In this document: positions 7,239 through 48,450 of the stretch, piece after piece | Layout: every line of letters begins with the position of its first letter | How positions within the stretch are numbered: the stretch's first letter is position 1 | Assembly (NCBI GenBank): GCA_947628655.1 | Contig: CANRAS010000015.1 | Coordinates: forward strand, 1 to 49,550 | Length of the DNA: 49,550 bases | Reading direction: 5' to 3' | Origin: an uncultured Clostridia bacterium | GTDB lineage: Bacteria > Bacillota > Clostridia > Oscillospirales > Ruminococcaceae | Notes under the pieces: generated by a model | Database searches by the model: none | What the model saw: only the letters and a program-made list of their open reading frames with translations | What the model was told of the DNA's origin: nothing | Made by a program: the position numbers and the translations under genes

Positions 7239-7337
7239 TATCTGTATACTGTATCAGCGTTTTCCGAAAAGCGGATAATGCGTGTACTCTTAACTATTTC
7301 TTCTGCTTGCTCCTTATAAGTAATTTCATCAAACCCC

Positions 7338-9445: not shown

Positions 9446-9659
9446 TTAGAGACTAGAGGCTAGAGGTAAGAGGCTGGAGCGGTAAGGGCGCGTTAATACG
9501 CTTGGTGGTAAATGAACGCGGGATAAGTGCGCGGGTCGCTTGAATTGAGCAACGCCGACCCCACGGTCGGCGCAGGGGCGTATTGACCCAAAGACAATCT
9601 AATCGCGCGCGGAGCGCGCACCAATACTAGCTACTAGTTTCTAATCTCTAGCTACTGGA
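9446..9659. repeat. R1: terminal-inverted-repeat intergenic element
   Basis: About 214 bp. The left end (TTTTAGAGACTAGAGGCTAG) and the reverse complement of the right end (CCAGTAGCTAGAGATTAG) are imperfect inverted repeats. The interior has the shared core AAAGACAATCTAATC (about 9590-9604) and a hairpin GCGCGC-GGA-GCGCGC (9605-9619). About 140 bp of interior (GGCGCGTTAATACGC, GCGGGATAAG, CGCTTGAATTGAGC) recurs in R7. No ORF inside. Confidence 0.75.
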
Positions 9660-12484: not shown

Positions 12485-12982
12485 ATGAAACGAATAGCGA
12501 AATTTGAAAAGGTAAGCCTAGATCAGTTCAGGCAGGCGTACACGGGCGATGATGCGGAACGCGTCTACAATGCGATAAAACTTCCGCGCCGCGCGACAAG
12601 CGGTTCAGCGGGGTATGACATCTTTGCGCCGTTTGAAATCACATTAAAGGCGGGCGAAACCGTGAAAATCCCTACGGGAATACGCGTTAAGATAGAGGAC
12701 GGCTGGTTCTTGTCGCTGTATCCGCGCAGCGGGCTGGGGTTCAAGTTCAGACTTCAGCTTGACAATACGGTCGGAATAATCGACAGCGATTATTACAACG
12801 CGGAAAACGAGGGGCATATTATGGTAAAGCTGACGAACGATACGCGCGAGGGAAAAACCGTACAGATAGCGGCGGGTGCGGGGTTTGTTCAGGGCATATT
12901 TTTGGAGTATGGGATTACCGAGGACGACGACGCGGACGGAGAACGCATTGGCGGGTTTGGCAGTACTGATAACAGTTTATAG
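12485..12982 (+). CDS. dut: dUTP diphosphatase (dUTPase)
   Basis: The trimeric enzyme hydrolyses dUTP to dUMP and PPi, keeping uracil out of DNA and feeding dTMP synthesis. All five motifs are visible in 165 residues: ATSGSAGYD, PRSGLG, TVGIIDSDYYNAENEG (uracil pocket and catalytic Asp), TREGKTVQIA, and the C-terminal P-loop-like ERIGGFGSTD. The N-terminal 30 residues (LDQFRQAYTG) are an extension over the minimal enzyme. The last codons, AAC AGT TTA TAG, coincide with the 12-bp end sequence of repeat R2/R3, so the terminal Asn-Ser-Leu and the stop appear to come from the element rather than the ancestral gene. Confidence 0.95.
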   Translation: MKRIAKFEKVSLDQFRQAYTGDDAERVYNAIKLPRRATSGSAGYDIFAPFEITLKAGETVKIPTGIRVKIEDGWFLSLYPRSGLGFKFRLQLDNTVGIIDSDYYNAENEGHIMVKLTNDTREGKTVQIAAGAGFVQGIFLEYGITEDDDADGERIGGFGSTDNSL

Positions 12983-13066
12983 TGCAAAGTGCTGAGTGTA
13001 CAGTATAATGTGCGCCCTGCGGGCGCAGATTGGATTGTCTTTAGGTCAATGCGTTGACACACTAAA
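12971..13066. repeat. R2: half-element at the dut stop codon
   Basis: Starts with AACAGTTTATAG (identical to the left end of R3) and AGTGTACAGTATAATG, then hairpin TGCGCCC-TGC-GGGCGCA (13011-13027), then the core on the opposite strand (GATTGTCT at 13033-13040). It ends near GCGTTGACACACTA. The right inverted repeat is missing. Confidence 0.65.
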
Positions 13067-13069
13067 CAG

Positions 13070-13112
13070 CGCCCTCACCGCCGTAAGCGGGGAGGGCGAT
13101 TTAATATTTTTT
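13070..13112 (+). terminator. Terminator of the gpsA-dut unit
   Basis: CGCCCTCACCGC / GCGGGGAGGGCG stem (13070-13098) followed by a T-rich run (ATTTAATATTTTTTT). A second hairpin, TTTCCCCGC/GCGGGGGAAA (13117-13139), precedes the fabV stop on the other strand. Confidence 0.65.
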
Positions 13113-13147: not shown

Positions 13148-14290
13148 TTATACACTTACATCCGCCGAATAATCAACACCGTCAACGCCGAAACCGAATA
13201 TCTCCATAAAGTCTTTCTGATACCCGTCCAAATCGGCAAGCTGTTTCAGGTTCTCTGTCGTAAGCTCGTTCCAGATTTTCGTTACCTCTGCCTGAACGTC
13301 CTCTCGCATTTCCAAATCGTCCATGCGTATCTGTCCGTCTTGGTCAAGGTTCAAATCACTGCTGTAAATCCTCGCGAAAAGCCTTTGCATTTGCTCTATG
13401 CAGCCCTCGTGAACGCCCTTTTCTTTCATCACCTTGTACAGTATCGTAATATAAAGCGGTACTATCGGAATAGCGGACGATGATTGTGTAACAAGCGCTT
13501 TGTTTACCGAAACATACGCTTTTACGCCGTTTTCCGTGATTTTGTGAGAGGTCGCGAGCAAGTGAGCCTTTGCCCTGCCGATTGAACCGTTAAAATACAT
13601 CGGGTGTGTGATTTCGGGACCGATATAGCTGTACGCTATCGTCAGCGCGTTTTCGGTGAGAACATCAGCGTTTTTCAGCGCGTTTATCCACATCTCCCAA
13701 TCCTCGCCGCCCATTACCTTTACGGTAGCGTCTATCTCTTCATCGGTGGCGGGTTCGAGGGTGATTTCGGTTATCTCGTTGGTTCTAAGGTCAATCGTCT
13801 TGTTCGTGTACGGCTCGCCCGTTGTTTTCAGAACGCTTTTGTAGACCGTATCGCCTACGGTTCTGCGCGGAGCGGCAAGGGAATACACCACAAGGTCAAC
13901 CTTTCCCAAATCCTGCTTTATCGTGTCTATTGCCTCGGCTTTTATTTCATCGGAATACGCGTCGCCGTTTATCGTTTTCGCGTACAAGCCCTCTTGCCCG
14001 GCAAATTTCTCAAACGCCTTTGTATTGTACCAGCCCGCCGTAGCGGTCTTACTGCCCGACGCGGGTTTGTCGAATATTACGCCCAAAGTCGCCGCGCCGC
14101 AGCCGAACGCCGCCGAAACGCGCGACGCCAGTCCGTAACCCATTGACGCGCCGATAACGAGTACTTTTTTTGCGCCGTCTATTCTGCCCTTTGACTTCAC
14201 ATACTCTATCTGCCGTCTGACGAGTTCCTCACAGCCTGCGGGGTGAGCGGTCGTGCAAATAAATCCTCTTACTTTCGGTTGAACTACCAT
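13148..14290 (-). CDS. fabV: Trans-2-enoyl-ACP/CoA reductase (NADH) FabV
   Basis: FabV performs the last reduction of each fatty-acid elongation cycle (enoyl-ACP or enoyl-CoA to acyl, with NADH). The start MVVQPKVRGFICTTAHPAGC is characteristic, the Rossmann loop is GASMGYGLASR, and the active-site Tyr-x8-Lys is Y-FNGSIGRA-K. The 380-residue length is slightly under the usual 395-400. ATG 14290 is chosen over an in-frame ATG at 14308 because AAAGGA lies 8 bp upstream and the family starts here. It has its own promoter and no co-directional neighbour. In anaerobes this family also reduces crotonyl-CoA, so a role in butyrate-type metabolism cannot be excluded. Confidence 0.95.
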   Translation of the reverse strand: MVVQPKVRGFICTTAHPAGCEELVRRQIEYVKSKGRIDGAKKVLVIGASMGYGLASRVSAAFGCGAATLGVIFDKPASGSKTATAGWYNTKAFEKFAGQEGLYAKTINGDAYSDEIKAEAIDTIKQDLGKVDLVVYSLAAPRRTVGDTVYKSVLKTTGEPYTNKTIDLRTNEITEITLEPATDEEIDATVKVMGGEDWEMWINALKNADVLTENALTIAYSYIGPEITHPMYFNGSIGRAKAHLLATSHKITENGVKAYVSVNKALVTQSSSAIPIVPLYITILYKVMKEKGVHEGCIEQMQRLFARIYSSDLNLDQDGQIRMDDLEMREDVQAEVTKIWNELTTENLKQLADLDGYQKDFMEIFGFGVDGVDYSADVSV

Positions 14291-14358
14291 TTTAAAATTC
14301 CTTTCCAAGCGCGAACCAAAAAGTGTTTAGTTCGATTTAACATAAACTTACAGTTTTA

Positions 14359-14399: not shown

Positions 14400-14607
14400 A
14401 ACAGTTTATAGTTTATAGTGTTGAGTGCAAAGTAAGACCGTTCCCCGCCTGCGGCGGGGAACGGCAATTTTAATTTACAAGCGTACTCCCCGCCGTAGGC
14501 GGGGAGTACGCTATTTGGTGTATCAACGCAACGACCTAAAGACAATCCAATCCGCGCACGAAGTGCGCACTTTATACTGTGCACTGTACACTCTTAACTA
14601 TAAACTG
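14400..14607. repeat. R3: complete inverted-repeat element with three hairpins
   Basis: 208 bp, bounded by a perfect 12-bp inverted repeat CAGTTTATAGTT (14402-14413) and AACTATAAACTG (14596-14607) that continues imperfectly for about 30 bp (GTGTTGAGTGCA versus GTGTACAGTGCA). Inside are a 12-bp stem around TGC (14438-14464, core CCCCGCC/GGCGGGG), a 14-bp stem around GTA (14481-14511), the core CCTAAAGACAATCCAATCC, and GCGCAC-GAA-GTGCGC (14554-14568). No ORF. Confidence 0.85.
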
Positions 14608-21503: not shown

Positions 21504-21605
21504 AACTAAAAGACAATCTAATCCGCGCACGAAGTGCGCACCATAGGGTAATCCGCAAAGCGGATTACCCGCTAACTACTAACTGCTATTCTCTAGCTAC
21601 TATTC
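21504..21605. repeat. R4: half-element at the end of the permease gene
   Basis: Core AAAGACAATCTAATCC (agacaatc at 21511-21518), hairpin GCGCAC-GAA-GTGCGC (21525-21539), 11-bp hairpin GGGTAATCCGC-AAA-GCGGATTACCC (21546-21570), then the right end CTATTCTCTAGCTACTA. No left inverted repeat. The permease stop is 3 bp beyond. Confidence 0.7.
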
Positions 21606-21607
21606 GC

Positions 21608-23737
21608 TTATTTCTTGCTCTTAAAAACAATAGCCGTATAACTCTTAGAAGTGCCGACATAAAACAGCACATACATTACTGCGAAAATAACGTAGCTTAT
21701 TATTGTAACGAGCGCGAACAGCTTTACATTGTACATATTGAAGATGTTCAGCATTTTCGCTATCATCGGGAAAGCGAACAGCATATGAAGTCCCGCTGTA
21801 ACAAGCGGTAAAAAGAACACTTTCAGCACCTGCGAATTTATCGCCGTGCGGATTTCCCCGCGCGTCATACCGACCTTTCGGAGTATCTCAAACCGCGCCG
21901 CGTCCTCGAAACCCTCGCTTATCTGCTTGTAGTAGATAATAAGCGCCGCCGACAGCGCGAACACACCGCCGAGCAGTATCCCTAAAAACAGCAGTCCGCC
22001 GTATATCCCGTAGTAATTATCAACAAACGTCGCCTTTGTGTCGGTGTGCCAAATCCTCTTTGAGTGCATTTCGTCAAACGCTTTAAGCCGCGCCTGCCCG
22101 TATGACCCGTACGGGTTTTCAAGCCCCTCGTAGACCTCGTTTACCTCGTTAATATCGTCCGATACGTCAAAGCCGTATTCTACCTTGAAATATGCGAGTT
22201 GATGTTCAGACCAGCCGTAGACGTTCGAGCCCAGACGCTCCGCCTCTTCTTTCGCGTCCTGCTCGGCTTTTTCGTTATACGGATTTATAATGTCGTACTG
22301 CTCCTTATATAATCTCGCAATCATATCCAAATCGCGCGTGTAGATTATCGCGAAGTCTAAGTTGGTCGTGAAGTCAAAGTCCTTTTCTTCAACGCTTGCG
22401 GGCGTTATGTCTATCGTTTGATAAGCAAGATCCAAATTGCCGAATTTAATCGTCGGATTTTTGGTAATTCGCTTGTCGCCCGCCTCGAATATAGCGACTT
22501 CGTTTTCGCCGAGCGAAATATCAAGCGCCTTGATGTTTTCGTCAGCCTCGGACAACGGCACAAACGAGTAGTCCGCTTGTATCTCGAAAGCGTCATCGTT
22601 ATCCGTTTTCATAAGGTCAACGTCCATAACGAGGTGGATAACGTCCAAAGTAATGTCAAGCGAGTGTTTAAGCGAAGTGTTGTGCGGTGTGTAGCCCCAG
22701 CCCGTCACACTTTCATTGATAATGTCAACGAACTCGTCTGTTCTGCGGGTTTCGTCGTCGTACATCGTCACGGTGATGTCGTGCGGATAAAGCGCGTTTA
22801 CGTTGTCGGGGATCGCCGCATAGAGCGACACCGTGCTTGAAATCGTAACTAATACCATAGTTGACAGAATACAGATAGACGCAAGCCCCGCGCCGTTTTT
22901 GCGCATACGGAATACCATTTGCGAGAGCGACACGAAGTTTTTGGTTTTATAATAGTAACGCTTATTTTTCTGCAATGTCCTGCAAAACACGACGCTCCCC
23001 GCGATAAACAGCAGATAAGTCGCGATTATCACGAGAATTACCGCGATAAAGAACAGCCCAATAGCCATAGCGGGTTCTTTTATGTGTGTTGCCATATAGT
23101 ATGCGACGGCAAGGCAAATAAAACCTATGACAGCCGCGGGTATATTCGTTCGCGGAGGTTTTTCGCCCGTGTTCTCCGAGTGCAGAAGTTCAATCGGACG
23201 GGAAAAGAACAGGTGGCGCAGGGAATTAAGAAGTATTATCACGAAAATCACCGCGAACAGGATAACCGCCGCGATTATCGCCGTGAAGTCCACATAAAAC
23301 GAGTATGTCACATTACTGCGCAGCATTCTCACCGCGAACATTTCGCCGAGTTTTGAAAACAGTATGCCCACGCCCAAGCCCAATACGATTGACACCACAT
23401 ACACAAAAAACGTTTCGCGGACGAGTATCCGCGCTATCTGGCGCTTTCCCAAGCCGAGGATATTATACAAGCCGAACTCTTTCTTTCGGCGTTTTACTAT
23501 AAACGAGTTTGTATAGAATAAGAATATCGCCGAGAATATTCCCATAACTATCATACCGAATTTGAGTATCAGCGTCATACCCCCGCCGCCGACCATATTC
23601 ACGAGCATCTTGTTAGCGCTCAAGAATGTGATGATGTAGAACACGGCGGTCATCAGCGACGAAGTGAGTATAAACGGCACATAAGCCGAGCCGTTTTTGC
23701 GTATTCCCGTAACGGCAAGCCTTGAATATAACCCCAT
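21608..23737 (-). CDS. BceB-like ABC transporter permease
   Basis: 709 residues with FtsX-type membrane domains at both ends, about ten helices. A first helix follows SAYVPFILTSSLMTAVFYIITF, and a long extracellular domain of about 200 residues (roughly 310-530) sits between helices 7 and 8. This is the layout of BceB/YtsD permeases, which protect against peptide antibiotics and also sense them for a partner kinase. A -1 overlap (TAATG) couples it to the ATPase gene upstream. A BceS-like kinase is just beyond R5. The target antibiotic cannot be inferred. Confidence 0.9.
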   Translation of the reverse strand: MGLYSRLAVTGIRKNGSAYVPFILTSSLMTAVFYIITFLSANKMLVNMVGGGGMTLILKFGMIVMGIFSAIFLFYTNSFIVKRRKKEFGLYNILGLGKRQIARILVRETFFVYVVSIVLGLGVGILFSKLGEMFAVRMLRSNVTYSFYVDFTAIIAAVILFAVIFVIILLNSLRHLFFSRPIELLHSENTGEKPPRTNIPAAVIGFICLAVAYYMATHIKEPAMAIGLFFIAVILVIIATYLLFIAGSVVFCRTLQKNKRYYYKTKNFVSLSQMVFRMRKNGAGLASICILSTMVLVTISSTVSLYAAIPDNVNALYPHDITVTMYDDETRRTDEFVDIINESVTGWGYTPHNTSLKHSLDITLDVIHLVMDVDLMKTDNDDAFEIQADYSFVPLSEADENIKALDISLGENEVAIFEAGDKRITKNPTIKFGNLDLAYQTIDITPASVEEKDFDFTTNLDFAIIYTRDLDMIARLYKEQYDIINPYNEKAEQDAKEEAERLGSNVYGWSEHQLAYFKVEYGFDVSDDINEVNEVYEGLENPYGSYGQARLKAFDEMHSKRIWHTDTKATFVDNYYGIYGGLLFLGILLGGVFALSAALIIYYKQISEGFEDAARFEILRKVGMTRGEIRTAINSQVLKVFFLPLVTAGLHMLFAFPMIAKMLNIFNMYNVKLFALVTIISYVIFAVMYVLFYVGTSKSYTAIVFKSKK

Positions 23738-24597: not shown

Positions 24598-24922
24598 CAG
24601 AGGTAAGAGGTAAGCGAGTAATCCGCAAGCGGATTACTCTGTAAGAGGTAAGAGAGCGCGGGGGCGCAGTTGTCTAGAGAATAGTTGTTAGTAGTTAGTT
24701 TCGGTGTCCGCCTACGGCGGACAGAAAGATTGTCTTTGAGTTAAGAGGTTGACACACTAGGCAAAAGCCACACCGCCTGCGCGTGGCGCAGGGGCGTATT
24801 AGTCCGCAGACAATCTAAACCGCGCGGGCGCAAGCCCGCGCACATTGAGCAATCCGCAAAGCGGATTGCGAACTAATTACTATAGGGTTATCCGCGTAGC
24901 GGATAACTCAACTATTCTCTAG
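24598..24922. repeat. R5: large composite element between exporter and kinase genes
   Basis: A 14-bp perfect inverted repeat CTAGAGAATAGTTG (24674-24687) / CAACTATTCTCTAG (24909-24922) bounds 249 bp; AGAGGTAAGA-type repeats extend it leftward. Hairpins: GAGTAATCCGC-AA-mirror (24616-24639), GTCCGCC-TAC-GGCGGAC-like (about 24707), GCGCGGGC-GCAA-GCCCGCGC (24822-24841), GCAATCCGC-AAA-GCGGATTGC (24849-24869), GTTATCCGC-GTA-GCGGATAAC (24889-24909). Two cores in opposite orientation (24728 and 24808). Confidence 0.8.
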
Positions 24923-25918
24923 CTACTCCCGCGTGTCAACGTGCGGTTGACAAAGCGTCACCCGAACCTGCGTTCCGCTGTTGTTGGACAAAGCAACGAT
25001 TGAATAGCCTAATCGCTCGCAAATGCGCTTGCACAAATACAAGCCTATGCCCGTGGCGCGTTTGTCGGTTCTGCCGTTGCTGCCCGTAAATCCGCGCTCG
25101 AAGATACGGGGCAAGTCCTCGCTCGCTATGCCGATACCCGTGTCGCTGATTGTAAGAACGGGCGGGTCGGCGGGTTCAAGCGCGATTTCTATACTTCCGC
25201 GCGGGGTGTATTTAAGCGCGTTTGAGATAAGCTGTTCGATAACGAAAAGCAGGAGTTTTTCGTCGGTAAGTACCGTAATGTCGGACGGCTCGTACACAAG
25301 CGTTAATTTACGGCGAATAAACTGCTTTGAAAATCGGCGTATCGCCTGCTTTACAATATCGTCAAGCGAATGTTCGCGGATTACAAGGTCGCTGTTGTCG
25401 CTGTCCAGCTGAACATAACACAGCGCCATTTCAACATACTGTTCTATCCGCTGAAGATACTCCGAAAATTCGTCCTTTTCGGAGAACTCCGCGCTTTGCA
25501 AAGCAAGGGAGAGCGCCGTTATCGGCGTTTTTATCTGGTGCGCCCACAGAGAAAAGTACACGGTCAAATCGTCATAGCGCTTGTCGGCGGCGGCAGACAG
25601 CACGTTTTTTTCGAGAAACAGCGTTTCGAGCAACTCTTGATAACGCTCCTCGTTATCATCGTCGGGGTCGGGGAGATTTTCAAGGGAAATCAAAATCTCG
25701 CCGCAAAGCTGATTTAGTGCGCTGTATTTTCTCTTGTACCGAAAAAACGCGACAGCGCCCATTACCGCGCAGACCGCCCCGCAGACGATAAGCGGATAAG
25801 CGACAGCGGAAAATTCCATTCCGTAAAGCGCCATTGACAGCGAAAACGCCGCCGCTGTCACTAATACCGCGATAATCGCATATCGGCTCCGGCGCAGAAA
25901 ACTCGCAAAGCATTTCAT
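24923..25918 (-). CDS. BceS-like intramembrane-sensing histidine kinase
   Basis: 331 residues. Two transmembrane helices (about 12-32 and 38-58) with almost no external loop mark an intramembrane-sensing kinase, which detects its signal through a BceAB exporter. The phosphoacceptor is H127 in SLWAHQIKTPI. The N-box is LISNALKYTP and the ATP lid region has SDTGIGIASEDLPRIFERGFTG and TGIGLYLCKRI. It belongs with the exporter at 21608-24501, but the usual response-regulator gene is missing: the next gene upstream is a CCA-adding-like enzyme only 5 bp away. The stop TAG lies in the R5 end sequence AGTAGCTAGAGAATAG. Confidence 0.92.
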   Translation of the reverse strand: MKCFASFLRRSRYAIIAVLVTAAAFSLSMALYGMEFSAVAYPLIVCGAVCAVMGAVAFFRYKRKYSALNQLCGEILISLENLPDPDDDNEERYQELLETLFLEKNVLSAAADKRYDDLTVYFSLWAHQIKTPITALSLALQSAEFSEKDEFSEYLQRIEQYVEMALCYVQLDSDNSDLVIREHSLDDIVKQAIRRFSKQFIRRKLTLVYEPSDITVLTDEKLLLFVIEQLISNALKYTPRGSIEIALEPADPPVLTISDTGIGIASEDLPRIFERGFTGSNGRTDKRATGIGLYLCKRICERLGYSIVALSNNSGTQVRVTLCQPHVDTRE

Positions 25919-27435: not shown

Positions 27436-27471
27436 AACATTACTTCCTTATGTGATTTCTCTAATAGTTGT

Positions 27472-27628
27472 TAGAGAATAGTTATTAGTTGTTAGTTTTG
27501 GTGCGCGCTCCGCGCGCATATTGGATTGTCTTTGAATTAAAGCGTTGCTGTTTCGGGGTAAGCCACGCCCGCGCGGTAAAGCGAAACAGGACGCAACTCT
27601 ATAAACCAGCTACTAGCCTTTATTCTCC
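27472..27628. repeat. R6: inverted-repeat element overlapping a gene end
   Basis: Left end TAGAGAATAG (27472-27481) and GTTATTAGTTGTTAG, then hairpin TGCGCGC-TCC-GCGCGCA (27502-27518), core on the opposite strand (GATTGTCT, 27524-27531), and a right end CTCTATAAACCAGCTACTAG with CCTTTATTCTC. The right end is almost identical to that of R7, and includes the last codons of the 27613 gene. Confidence 0.75.
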
Positions 27629-28017: not shown

Positions 28018-28106
28018 ATTTTGCTCCTTTTCGCAGTTTGAAAATGTTTGAAGATAGAGCGCACGGACAGCCGAGCAACGCCGTAATCCCCGCGAACCTA
28101 GCCCGC

Positions 28107-28167
28107 GTTTTGCGCAACGCGCAAAACAACGGCGCGACAGCGCCGTTAATTCGCCGTCAGGCGAATT
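28107..28167. repeat. Three contiguous perfect hairpins
   Basis: GTTTTGCGC-AAC-GCGCAAAAC (28107-28127), AACGGCGC-GACA-GCGCCGTT (28128-28147) and AATTCGCC-GTCA-GGCGAATT (28148-28167) follow each other without a single spacer base. The rest of 28018-28190 shows no ORF. Part of the region upstream of the minus-strand membrane gene. Confidence 0.8.
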
Positions 28168-28189
28168 GCGGGCGGTCGGGCAACGGTGC

Positions 28190-28380
28190 GTACACGGACA
28201 GCGCAGGCGCGTTGATACGCGGGACGGTAAACTAATGCGGGATAAGGGCGCGGGGCGCTTGAATTGAGCCACCCAAACGCGCGGTAAAGCGAACAACGTT
28301 CTGACCCAAAGACAATCTAATCCGCGCCCGCAGGGCGCAACTCTATAAACTAGCAACTAGCCTTTATTCTCTAGCTGCTA
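28190..28380. repeat. R7: R1-like element
   Basis: Interior shared with R1 (GGCGCGTTGATACGC, GCGGGATAAG, CGCTTGAATTGAGC), core ACCCAAAGACAATCTAATCC (agacaatc 28310-28317), hairpin GCGCCC-GCA-GGGCGC (28324-28338), right end AACTCTATAAACTAGC and CTTTATTCTCTAGC. A degenerate core GGACAATCT follows at 28384. Left end not clear. Confidence 0.7.
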
Positions 28381-30648: not shown

Positions 30649-30688
30649 TAACAGTTTAAAGTTTTTAGCGCAATGCGAATAATAACAG

Positions 30689-30722
30689 CGCCCTCCCCGC
30701 CGTAGGCGGGGAGGGCGTTTGC
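30689..30722 (+). terminator. 13-bp GC-rich terminator hairpin
   Basis: CGCCCTCCCCGCC (30689-30701), GTA, GGCGGGGAGGGCG (30705-30717), then TTTG. The same stem core recurs at 31982, 14481 and elsewhere. AACAGTTTAAAG just after the gene (about 30650) resembles the R2/R3 end. Confidence 0.75.
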
Positions 30723-30728
30723 ATTATC

Positions 30729-30814
30729 AAATGCCACTTTCTTCTAACCTCGAAAGTTGCGCCCCATAAGCGCGTGAGGATAGTGGCATTTCATATGAGA
30801 GGGGGCGCAACTTT
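30729..30814. other. Interlocking inverted repeats (pseudoknot-capable element)
   Basis: AAATGCCACT (30729-30738) is complementary to AGTGGCATTT (30782-30791), and AAAGTTGCGCCCC (30753-30765) to GGGGCGCAACTTT (30802-30814). Order is A-B-A'-B', which cannot be one nested hairpin. Within A-A' lie smaller stems CCTC/GAGG and GCGC-CCCATAA-GCGC. It lies between the convergent ends of the EF-G-like and pyrB genes. Confidence 0.8.
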
Positions 30815-30834
30815 AACCTCTCCAACGTTCCCGC

Positions 30835-46853: not shown

Positions 46854-48263
46854 ATGAGTTTACAGTATGTAGGACTTAAAGACATAAACGGACCTCTTGT
46901 GGCTTTGGAGGGCGTATCGGGCGTGTCGTTCGATGAAATAGCGCGTATTCGCCTGAACGACGGCACGGAGCGCATAGGGCGCGTTGTAGAACTTTCGGGC
47001 GACAGAGCCGTTTTGCAGGTGTTTGAGGGTACAAAAGGAATTTCCCTCGAAAATACCCGCACCGTATTTTCGGGAAAACCGCTTGAAATCCCGCTCGCAG
47101 TAGAAATGCTGGGGCGCGTATTCAACGGCGCGGGAAAGCCTATCGACGGTCTGGGCGCGGTATTCCCCGAAAAAATGGGCGACGTAAACGGTCAGCCGTT
47201 AAACCCCGTAGCGCGTAAGTACCCAAGGAATTATATCCACACGGGAATATCCTCAATAGACGCGCTTATGACGCTGATAAGAGGGCAGAAGTTACCTATC
47301 TTTTCGGGTTCGGGTCTTTCTCACAACAAACTCGCCGTACAGATAGTAAAACAGGCTAAGCTGACGGGCGAGGGGAGCGGAGATTTCGCAATAGTATTCG
47401 CGGCAATGGGCGTTCAGAACGACGTAGCGGACTATTTCCGCCGCAGTTTTGAGGAAACGGGCGCGTCGGAACGCGTGTGTATGTTCCTCAATCTTTCAAG
47501 CGACCCTATTATCGAACGTCTGCTTACCCCGATGTGCGCGCTTACGGCGGCGGAGTATCTCGCGTTTGAGAAGAATATGCACATACTTGTTATTATGACT
47601 GATATGACAAGCTATGCCGAGGCATTGCGCGAGTTTTCGAGTTCTAAGGGAGAAATCCCCGGAAGAAAAGGCTACCCCGGCTACCTCTATTCCAATCTCG
47701 CGTCGCTTTATGAACGCGCGGGCGTTATTGAGGGAAGTACGGGTTCGGTGACACAGATACCGATACTTACAATGCCCAACGACGACATCACACACCCTAT
47801 CCCCGACCTTACGGCGTACATCACGGAGGGGCAGATAGTGTTCGACCGCGACCTTGACCAGCGCGGCGTTTACCCCGGATTGTCGGTTCTGCTGTCGCTG
47901 TCGCGCCTTATGAAAGACGGCATAGGCGAGGGCTATACCCGCGCCGACCACGCGGCTGTTTCCAATCAGCTTTTCGCGGCGTATGCAAAGGTTCAGGACG
48001 CGCGCAGTTTGGCGTCCGTTATCGGCGAGGAAGAATTATCCGACACCGACCGCGCGTATTTGCGGTTCGGACGCATTTTTGAAGAGAACTTCTTAAATCA
48101 AGGCTTTGACGAAAACCGCACAATGGACGAAACGCTCGACCTAGGCTGGGACTTGTTGTGCAGTCTGCCCAAATCAGAGCTTGACAGAATTGATGAAAAG
48201 TTATTGGAAGAAAAATATAATCCCGAACGCGCTGAGAGATTTATAGAAGAGGCTAGGGGCTAG
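46854..48263 (+). CDS. ntpB: V/A-type ATPase regulatory subunit B
   Basis: 469 residues, homologous to subunit A but without a working P-loop ([15 protein letters not shown] in its place), as expected. [20 protein letters not shown] and [20 protein letters not shown] are diagnostic. ATG 46854 is chosen, 6 bp after GGAG; ATG 46842 overlaps the ntpA stop (TAATG) but lacks an RBS. The last codons, GAG GCT AGG GGC TAG, merge into the R9 end sequence. Confidence 0.95.
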
Positions 48264-48398
48264 AAGTAAGATGTTAGAGGTAAGCGGGTAATCCGCTTTG
48301 CGGATTACCCTCAAACAGCAGGCTATGCCTGCTGTTTGGTCGAGCAATCCGCTTTGCGGATTACCCTCAAACAAACAGGGTGTGCCTGTTGTTTGTTT
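48253..48398. repeat. R9: array of four hairpins between ntpB and ntpD
   Basis: After GGCTAGAAGTAAGATGTTAG come GGGTAATCCGC-TTT-GCGGATTACCC (48286-48310), CAAACAGCAGGC-TAT-GCCTGCTGTTTG (48312-48338), AATCCGC-TTT-GCGGATT (48346-48362) and AAACAAAC...GTTTGTTT (48369-48398). The pair AATCCGC-hairpin plus CTCAAACA-hairpin is duplicated in tandem. It lies inside the operon, upstream of the ntpD RBS. Confidence 0.85.
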
Positions 48399-48450
48399 AA
48401 AAGTAGATTTTATGTGCGCGGTGTTGTTCACATAGGCAGGTGACATTGAA

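Follow-up and report, generated by a model that had tools for sequence, protein, structure and literature searches.

The window, by which we mean the whole stretch of 49,550 nt that was analysed, is contig 15 of a draft genome (2.09 Mb, 34 contigs, 95.6% complete). It contains an enoyl reductase gene (13148-14308), the protein of which matches uncultured Ruminococcaceae and Oscillospiraceae genomes (84% for UBA5579, 79% for UBA7135, and several rabbit-gut MAGs). A dUTPase-like open reading frame (12485-12982) has its stop codon (12980-12982) inside the left tract of the repeat element at 12973..13105, and the contig starts with a perfect 77-nt direct repeat (1-77 and 90-166) that is possibly an assembly-edge effect. 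The element reported here, at 14402..14607, belongs to a family in which a complete member consists of two inverted end modules, each made up of a tract with a 7-nt period, a short hairpin and a AACAATCTAA core, flanking an interior of approximately 76 nt. The members and related sequences in the window are as follows.

9446..9656, plus strand: element with a TAG-type left tract, a long middle, core 9590-9604, hairpin 9605-9619 and right tract 9627-9656.
12973..13105, minus strand: half element with tract 12973-13005, hairpin 13011-13027 and core 13028-13042 (reverse strand), then hairpin 13070-13099.
14402..14607, plus strand: the reported element; left 7-nt tract 14402-14434 and hairpins 14438-14464 and 14480-14512, this left half having no core; core 14538-14553, hairpin GCGCAC-GAA-GTGCGC 14554-14568 and tract 14575-14607, the arms being inverted.
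21509..21622, plus strand: half element with core 21509-21524, hairpin 21525-21539, second-class hairpin 21546-21570 and a tract extending to 21622.
24600..24927, no strand assigned: nearly complete element with tracts, hairpin 24705-24723, core 24728-24737 (minus), middle, core 24806-24821 (plus), hairpin 24822-24841 and second-class hairpins 24850-24868 and 24888-24906.
27466..27547, minus strand: half element with tract, hairpin 27502-27518 and core 27524-27533.
28102..28379, plus strand: long variant with three abutting hairpins within CCCGC/GCGGG (28102-28172), core 28308-28323, hairpin 28324-28338 and tract 28350-28379.
30649..30722, no strand assigned: related intergenic tract and CCCCGCC hairpin, without a core.
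48246..48400, no strand assigned: related tract without a core, accompanied by two second-class hairpins, in one of which an outer pair is broken.

The core AGACAATC occurs nine times in the window, against a mean of 1.3 in shuffled sequence, and none of 100 shuffles reached nine. One copy (3274) lies inside an open reading frame, and the other eight are those listed in the initial annotation. The hairpins which that annotation placed beside seven of the eight are all present (GCGCGC-GGA, TGCGCCC-TGC, GCGCAC-GAA twice, GCGCGGGC-GCAA, TGCGCGC-TCC and GCGCCC-GCA), and a further hairpin, TGTCCGCC-TAC-GGCGGACA at 24705-24723, stands beside the eighth core (24728), so that every one of the eight adjoins a hairpin. 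A second hairpin class that had been described (TAATCCGC, CAATCCGC and TTATCCGC) is real, but compensation does not extend to every copy, CAATCCGC facing GCGGATTA near 48343; because of this one broken outer pair, the statement that the arms always pair holds almost, but not quite, without exception. The ends, described as imperfect inverted repeats, proved to be inverted tracts with, in addition, a 7-nt period that had gone unmentioned. Two further hairpin units were observed: one of about 28 nt (AGCGTTTTCCGC..GCGGATAATGCGT) lies inside 7-nt tracts in a seemingly fixed register (window 7253-7292; loci L010, L030, L067 and L069), and another, AAAGTTGCGCCCC...GGGGGCGCAACTTT, is found at about 30749-30817 and, in locus L001, stands after the core in place of the usual hairpin.

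In sister species the order of parts is a 7-nt-period tract (CAGTGTACAGTG...), GGT, hairpin, ATTTAGATTGTT, interior, AACAATCTAAAT, hairpin, ACC and the inverted tract, and the two ends of the interior differ from each other. Identity at lag 7 within the tracts is 0.62 in 168 halves from relatives and 0.50 in 81 halves from the window's own genome (0.25 and 0.27, respectively, after shuffling), with recurrent peaks at lags 14 and 21; the tracts are of several types, among them ACTGTAC, TAGCTAC, AGAGGTA, CAATTGA and AATTCGG. The hairpins, flanked by AATCC/AAAT and ACC, are variable, while the core (GACAATC, AA) is invariant in the 42 halves aligned out of 45 half copies. Elements of the own genome are more mosaic, with extra hairpins within the tracts and many copies consisting of one half only. 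The long variant was found in 23 distinct copies among the own-genome loci examined. Its three hairpins, upstream of the core and within CCCGC/GCGGG, form a perfect cloverleaf with nearly constant stems and variable loops, the third loop being of the G..A type in 23/23 as judged by eye, and the three copies that were scored gave DNA fold z-scores of -5.2 to -6.7.

The exact core AAAGACAATCYAATCC is present 32 times in the genome and its reversed pattern not at all. A covariance model of core and hairpin, built from 24 copies, gave at least 150 matches with E below 1e-6 in the 2.1 Mb genome; these are matches to end modules, not whole elements, and the matches listed do not include the two copies of the window at 24728 and 24808. 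The family, proposed from the window, is thus not confined to it. Neighbouring halves in minus-plus order no more than 4 kb apart number 20 in the own genome (7 within 300 bp, 13 more than 400 bp apart). With stricter filters the model matched 16 of 61 genomes: the own genome plus 15 of the 36 further genus members, and none of 24 genomes from other families of the order. Under these filters, stricter than those of the own-genome search, the four sister species G002, G005, G007 and G010 had 11, 39, 37 and 36 matches. A separate similarity search of the same four genomes returned 88-104 match rows each, which are not copy numbers because only 40 candidate stretches per genome were scored and the query holds two elements. 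The 80 named loci that surround the reductase gene yielded one clear model match, in UBA5579, and a 30-base pattern had no exact match in a named genome collection from which the window's own or near records were possibly excluded. Upstream of the enoyl reductase gene, loci L089 and L094 carry core-less, tract-ended elements directly 3' of a TATAAT-like box, and from this position they may belong to the 5' leader.

The four sister species share about 92% identity over the loci compared, and many element sites are common to them. From stretches of their genomes 84 complete elements were collected and matched by flanks, giving 44 pairs, of which 36 matched on both flanks and 35 of those were of known orientation. 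Twenty of the 35 pairs, those from one site not being independent, had the same orientation and 15 were inverted. By site, at least one species was inverted at 10 of 22, none at 11, and orientation was not called at 1; all seven three-way comparisons were consistent. Unrelated interiors have a mean identity of 0.80 (2182 pairs from 78 of the 84 elements; 95th percentile 0.883, 99th 0.919), and the cut-off between retained and replaced interiors, 0.885, was chosen after this distribution had been seen. By that cut-off an orthologous-level interior was kept in 15 pairs (12 in the same orientation and 3, from 2 sites, inverted), whereas in 20 pairs the interior was at the level of unrelated copies (12 inverted, 8 same). 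Half of the latter eight come from a tandem copy in G007:C9 (46673, 46937) that duplicates its flank and resembles a local duplication or an assembly effect. At a shared site, then, the interior is the same, is inverted, or is replaced, in either orientation, by one as different as that of an unrelated copy. Since 12 of the 15 inverted pairs have interiors no more alike than unrelated copies, replacement is common, and the split of the 35 pairs shows two processes: replacement, in which orientation is roughly random, and in-place inversion. The compared genomes are all draft assemblies in which chimeric joins at repeats are possible, though the three-species sites agree.

The clear in-place inversion is at G010:C25:30398 against G007:C34:8830 and G002:C30:4633, where identity is 0.95 once the interior is reversed; the left tract of the G010 and G007 copies is identical and has not moved. 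A second, G002:C25:11339 against G010:C3:11938 (0.92-0.93, mutual best matches), is probable, given the post hoc cut-off and the identities that unrelated pairs attain at their 95th and 99th percentiles. Other sites differ in their ends: at one, the element of G005 is complete, that of G007 is a half ending at GATTGTT, and G010 carries a different element, and at G002:C12:13044 and G007:C14:21314 the inner sequence is the same while the end is core-hairpin-ACTG in G002 and a TAG-type tract in G007.

We consider the chances about even that this is a genus-specific, high-copy, non-autonomous fold-back element of the MITE-like kind, the interiors of which are exchanged and inverted through its palindromic ends. 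Exchange and flipping are suggested by the fact that the ends are inverted repeats common to the family; interiors could pass by recombination or template switching, the partners being either different family copies or the opposite ends of a single one. The arrival of copies at new sites would call for an enzyme acting in trans.

The hairpins bear on how such exchange might proceed. Covariation was scored in 24 of 45 halves, those with other loop lengths or registers being omitted for column alignment and 3 further matches having been set aside earlier. In this set 99.3% of cells are paired, compared with 88.0% after shuffling; 16 cells carry changes in both partners, no cell a change in a single partner, and 1 is unpaired, which bears out the compensatory arm changes first noticed in the window. 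In the four sister species, 153 of 168 halves have a GNA (53) or GNNA (100) loop when followed outward from the core, and C precedes the loop in 167 of the 168; these counts are conditional on the rule for accepting elements, by which both ends had to show a fully paired hairpin, 5 pairs or longer, with a loop of 3-4. Control hairpins (at least 7 pairs, loops of 3-4, both strands read) follow the G..A rule in 155 of 1134 readings (Fisher p 1.7e-92, a test that assumes independent halves, which these are not). In the own genome the rule holds in 76 of the 81 hairpins with 5 or more pairs; the rest of the 97 core sites comprise 12 without a hairpin and 4 where it is shorter. DNA loops of the types d(cGNAg) and d(cGNNAg) have an unusually high stability. 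A stage of folded single-stranded DNA would explain both the two-arm changes and the settling on GNA and GNNA loops, and such a stage probably takes part in the exchange. The lack of one-sided standard changes, together with the many GNA triloops, speaks against reading the outward strand as a classic RNA hairpin.

Other features of the hairpins count against a DNA fold-back. Stem mismatches are 12 of the A.C type, 3 of other types and none G.T, so that wobble pairs would exist only on the strand opposite the G..A loops (12 to 0, p 0.0005, independence assumed), and 78 of 100 tetraloops are GNRA on the outward strand, which suits RNA too. The element may instead act as RNA. Read inward, each half is a hairpin followed by a T-rich core (GCGGACATTATTTAGATTGTTTT), which could serve as a two-way terminator or an mRNA-processing signal with selection on the RNA hairpin. 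All 12 A.C-type mismatches become G.U on the inward strand, with no G.T on the outward strand, several half elements adjoin terminator-like hairpins, and GNRA tetraloops are frequent, albeit on the outward strand. The T-rich stretch is interrupted, however, the window has no Rfam match at the gathering threshold, by which membership of a known Rfam family was rejected, and inverted and exchanged interiors are left unexplained; to our knowledge, triloops and GNYA loops are not a known RNA rule. We regard an RNA element as unlikely, at roughly one chance in five.

A further reading, which we hold to be just as improbable as the RNA element, is that DNA is shuffled genome-wide among dozens or more fixed docking sites per genome, each framed by hairpins and holding a small standard cassette that is continually inverted and exchanged. 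The hairpins would be self-renewing, would carry a G..A loop code and would fold as single-stranded DNA.

Doubtful, and less probable than either of these, is a site-specific inversion switch in which the inverted AACAATCTAA cores are the targets of a recombinase, of the tyrosine or serine type, that inverts the interior or swaps it between copies. Such a switch would suit the constancy of the core beside variable hairpins, the half elements that stop at the core, and the pair G007:C14:31752 and G010:C40:12423, in which the interior is reversed and both hairpins are in place. In other inverted pairs, such as G005:C5:5559 and G007:C4:83786, the hairpins fit movement together with the interior, and across the 15 inverted pairs the breakpoint is ambiguous, the fit to staying and to swapping being 0.748 and 0.765 for hairpins and 0.745 and 0.715 for tracts. 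The idea that the breakpoint is at the core in every inversion is weakened by the ambiguous hairpin fit. Tyrosine recombinases were found in all nine genomes searched, bearers and non-bearers alike, but three of the nine (G001, G017 and G032) have no model match and no recombinase is linked to the elements.

Slightly less probable again is neutral upkeep, in which an arm is rewritten from its partner through errors of replication (quasi-palindrome correction), shape is not under selection and the same slippage inverts the loop. It would account for the absence of one-sided standard changes in the 24 copies, and also for hairpins and tracts that diverge faster than the far flanks. In retained pairs, however, interior identity is 0.96 against about 0.91 in the far flanks and 0.73-0.87 in the nearest 100 bases on each side, and this conservation of interiors is not predicted by neutral upkeep; nor are the G..A loop rule with its strand orientation and the replacement of interiors by those of unrelated copies.

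The machinery that might move a MITE-like fold-back element was sought in the own genome and in relatives. No transposase family was recognized by Pfam among 18 proteins in or near spaced inverted halves of the own genome (12 belong to ordinary families and 6 to none), and the same scan revealed no autonomous relative sharing the ends of the family. The idea that the enoyl reductase gene sits within a composite transposon was rejected, the reductase, its neighbours and the named genes between other inverted halves being ordinary. REP/RAYT elements carry a GTAG or CGTC tag at the foot of the hairpin. Membership of that class was rejected because the Y1 transposase is absent from the own genome and from 15 of the 16 bearing genomes; it occurs in 8 of 41 genus genomes, G035 being the sole one with model matches. 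A REPIN moved by a REP-associated tyrosine transposase is therefore contradicted, unless the enzyme was lost after the spread, and is highly improbable in spite of the inverted hairpin doublets, spacer and compensatory changes that it shares with the REPINs described in PMC3116915. No clean empty site, at which a target duplication could be measured, was found for the core-hairpin family among orthologous stretches of the sister species. The fold-back exchange that we favour is accordingly limited by the finding of no enzyme, target duplication or clean empty site and of one clear in-place inversion only. The original proposal of a repeated, non-autonomous element with constrained structure is supported by covariation, by genome- and genus-wide copies and by the G..A loops. 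Its mobility is supported by genus-wide spread and by changed occupants at orthologous sites, but neither a target-site duplication nor a transposase-bearing full-length relative was found for the family.

Two other kinds of insertion were seen in the sister species. A second repeat family (CAGACTGTATATAAAGCCCC...CTACAGTCTG), with nested hairpins inside, is present or absent between species (G005:C9:30401, locus L210, against G010:C5; G007:C1:28417; G010:C1 near 145774) and has a 13-nt duplication at G005:C9:30401. An AT-rich insertion of about 88 nt at G007:C1:71054 / G010:C1 near 96785 has a 15-nt duplication on its flanks, with a TATAAT-like box inside the duplicated sequence.

Several known systems resemble this family in part. 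In the minute hairpin-linked inversions of plastids, which are single loops, small segments between inverted repeats are likewise turned between close relatives, whereas here a dispersed family exchanges between its copies. The SDR of Nostoc, reportedly described by Elhai et al. in 2008, are said to be tiny nested hairpins with compensatory changes, lying in tandem heptamers and mini-transposons. The hairpins seen by eye within 7-nt tracts here may be comparable; the SDR belong to another phylum, and here the hairpins are part of a symmetrical element with an interior. Small dispersed repeats are cited as SDR in PMC3116915. The REPINs treated in that paper likewise have two inverted hairpin modules and a spacer, are intergenic and of high copy number, show compensatory changes and are predicted to fold in single-stranded DNA or mRNA; the inverted hairpin doublet that marks a REPIN is present in the 84 complete elements of the four relatives. 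Our elements differ from REPINs in the near-absence of the REP-associated transposase from bearing genomes, in the added 7-nt-period tracts and in the inversion or replacement of the interior seen at orthologous sites. Prokaryotic MITEs, as presented in PMC10969869 and PMC2229807, are in the same size range, intergenic and gene-free and have terminal inverted repeats, and the present elements have terminal inverted repeats, a length of 50-500 bp and a short interior without a gene. Unlike those MITEs, they have yielded no target duplication or parent transposon, the orientation of their interior is not fixed, and their ends have a 7-nt period. Yeast mitochondrial GC clusters, as described in PMC4478555, are short, mobile and palindromic, merge and are shuffled where sites are homologous, vary in their loops and have short flanking direct repeats, AG or ACT. 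In contrast to that mitochondrial case, no flanking direct repeats were found here, and the clusters as described there are without an inverted dyad and interior. A literature search, with subscription journals mostly outside its coverage, found no description of the combination seen here. The kind of element is known, being MITE-like, REPIN-like and SDR-like, and its combination of features is without a match in the literature searched.

The family provides a bacterial case in which both hairpin arms are rewritten but the shape persists, and in which orthologous copies lend themselves to comparison at each site. The old question of how such tiny repeats, palindromic as they are, spread and remain perfect, whether through selection, single-stranded DNA or template switching, is directly testable in it. 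If exchange is continuing, the intergenic content and polarity of a gut genus would change on a short time scale and, should the genome-wide shuffling of cassettes between docking sites be true, intergenic regions would switch polarity between close relatives.
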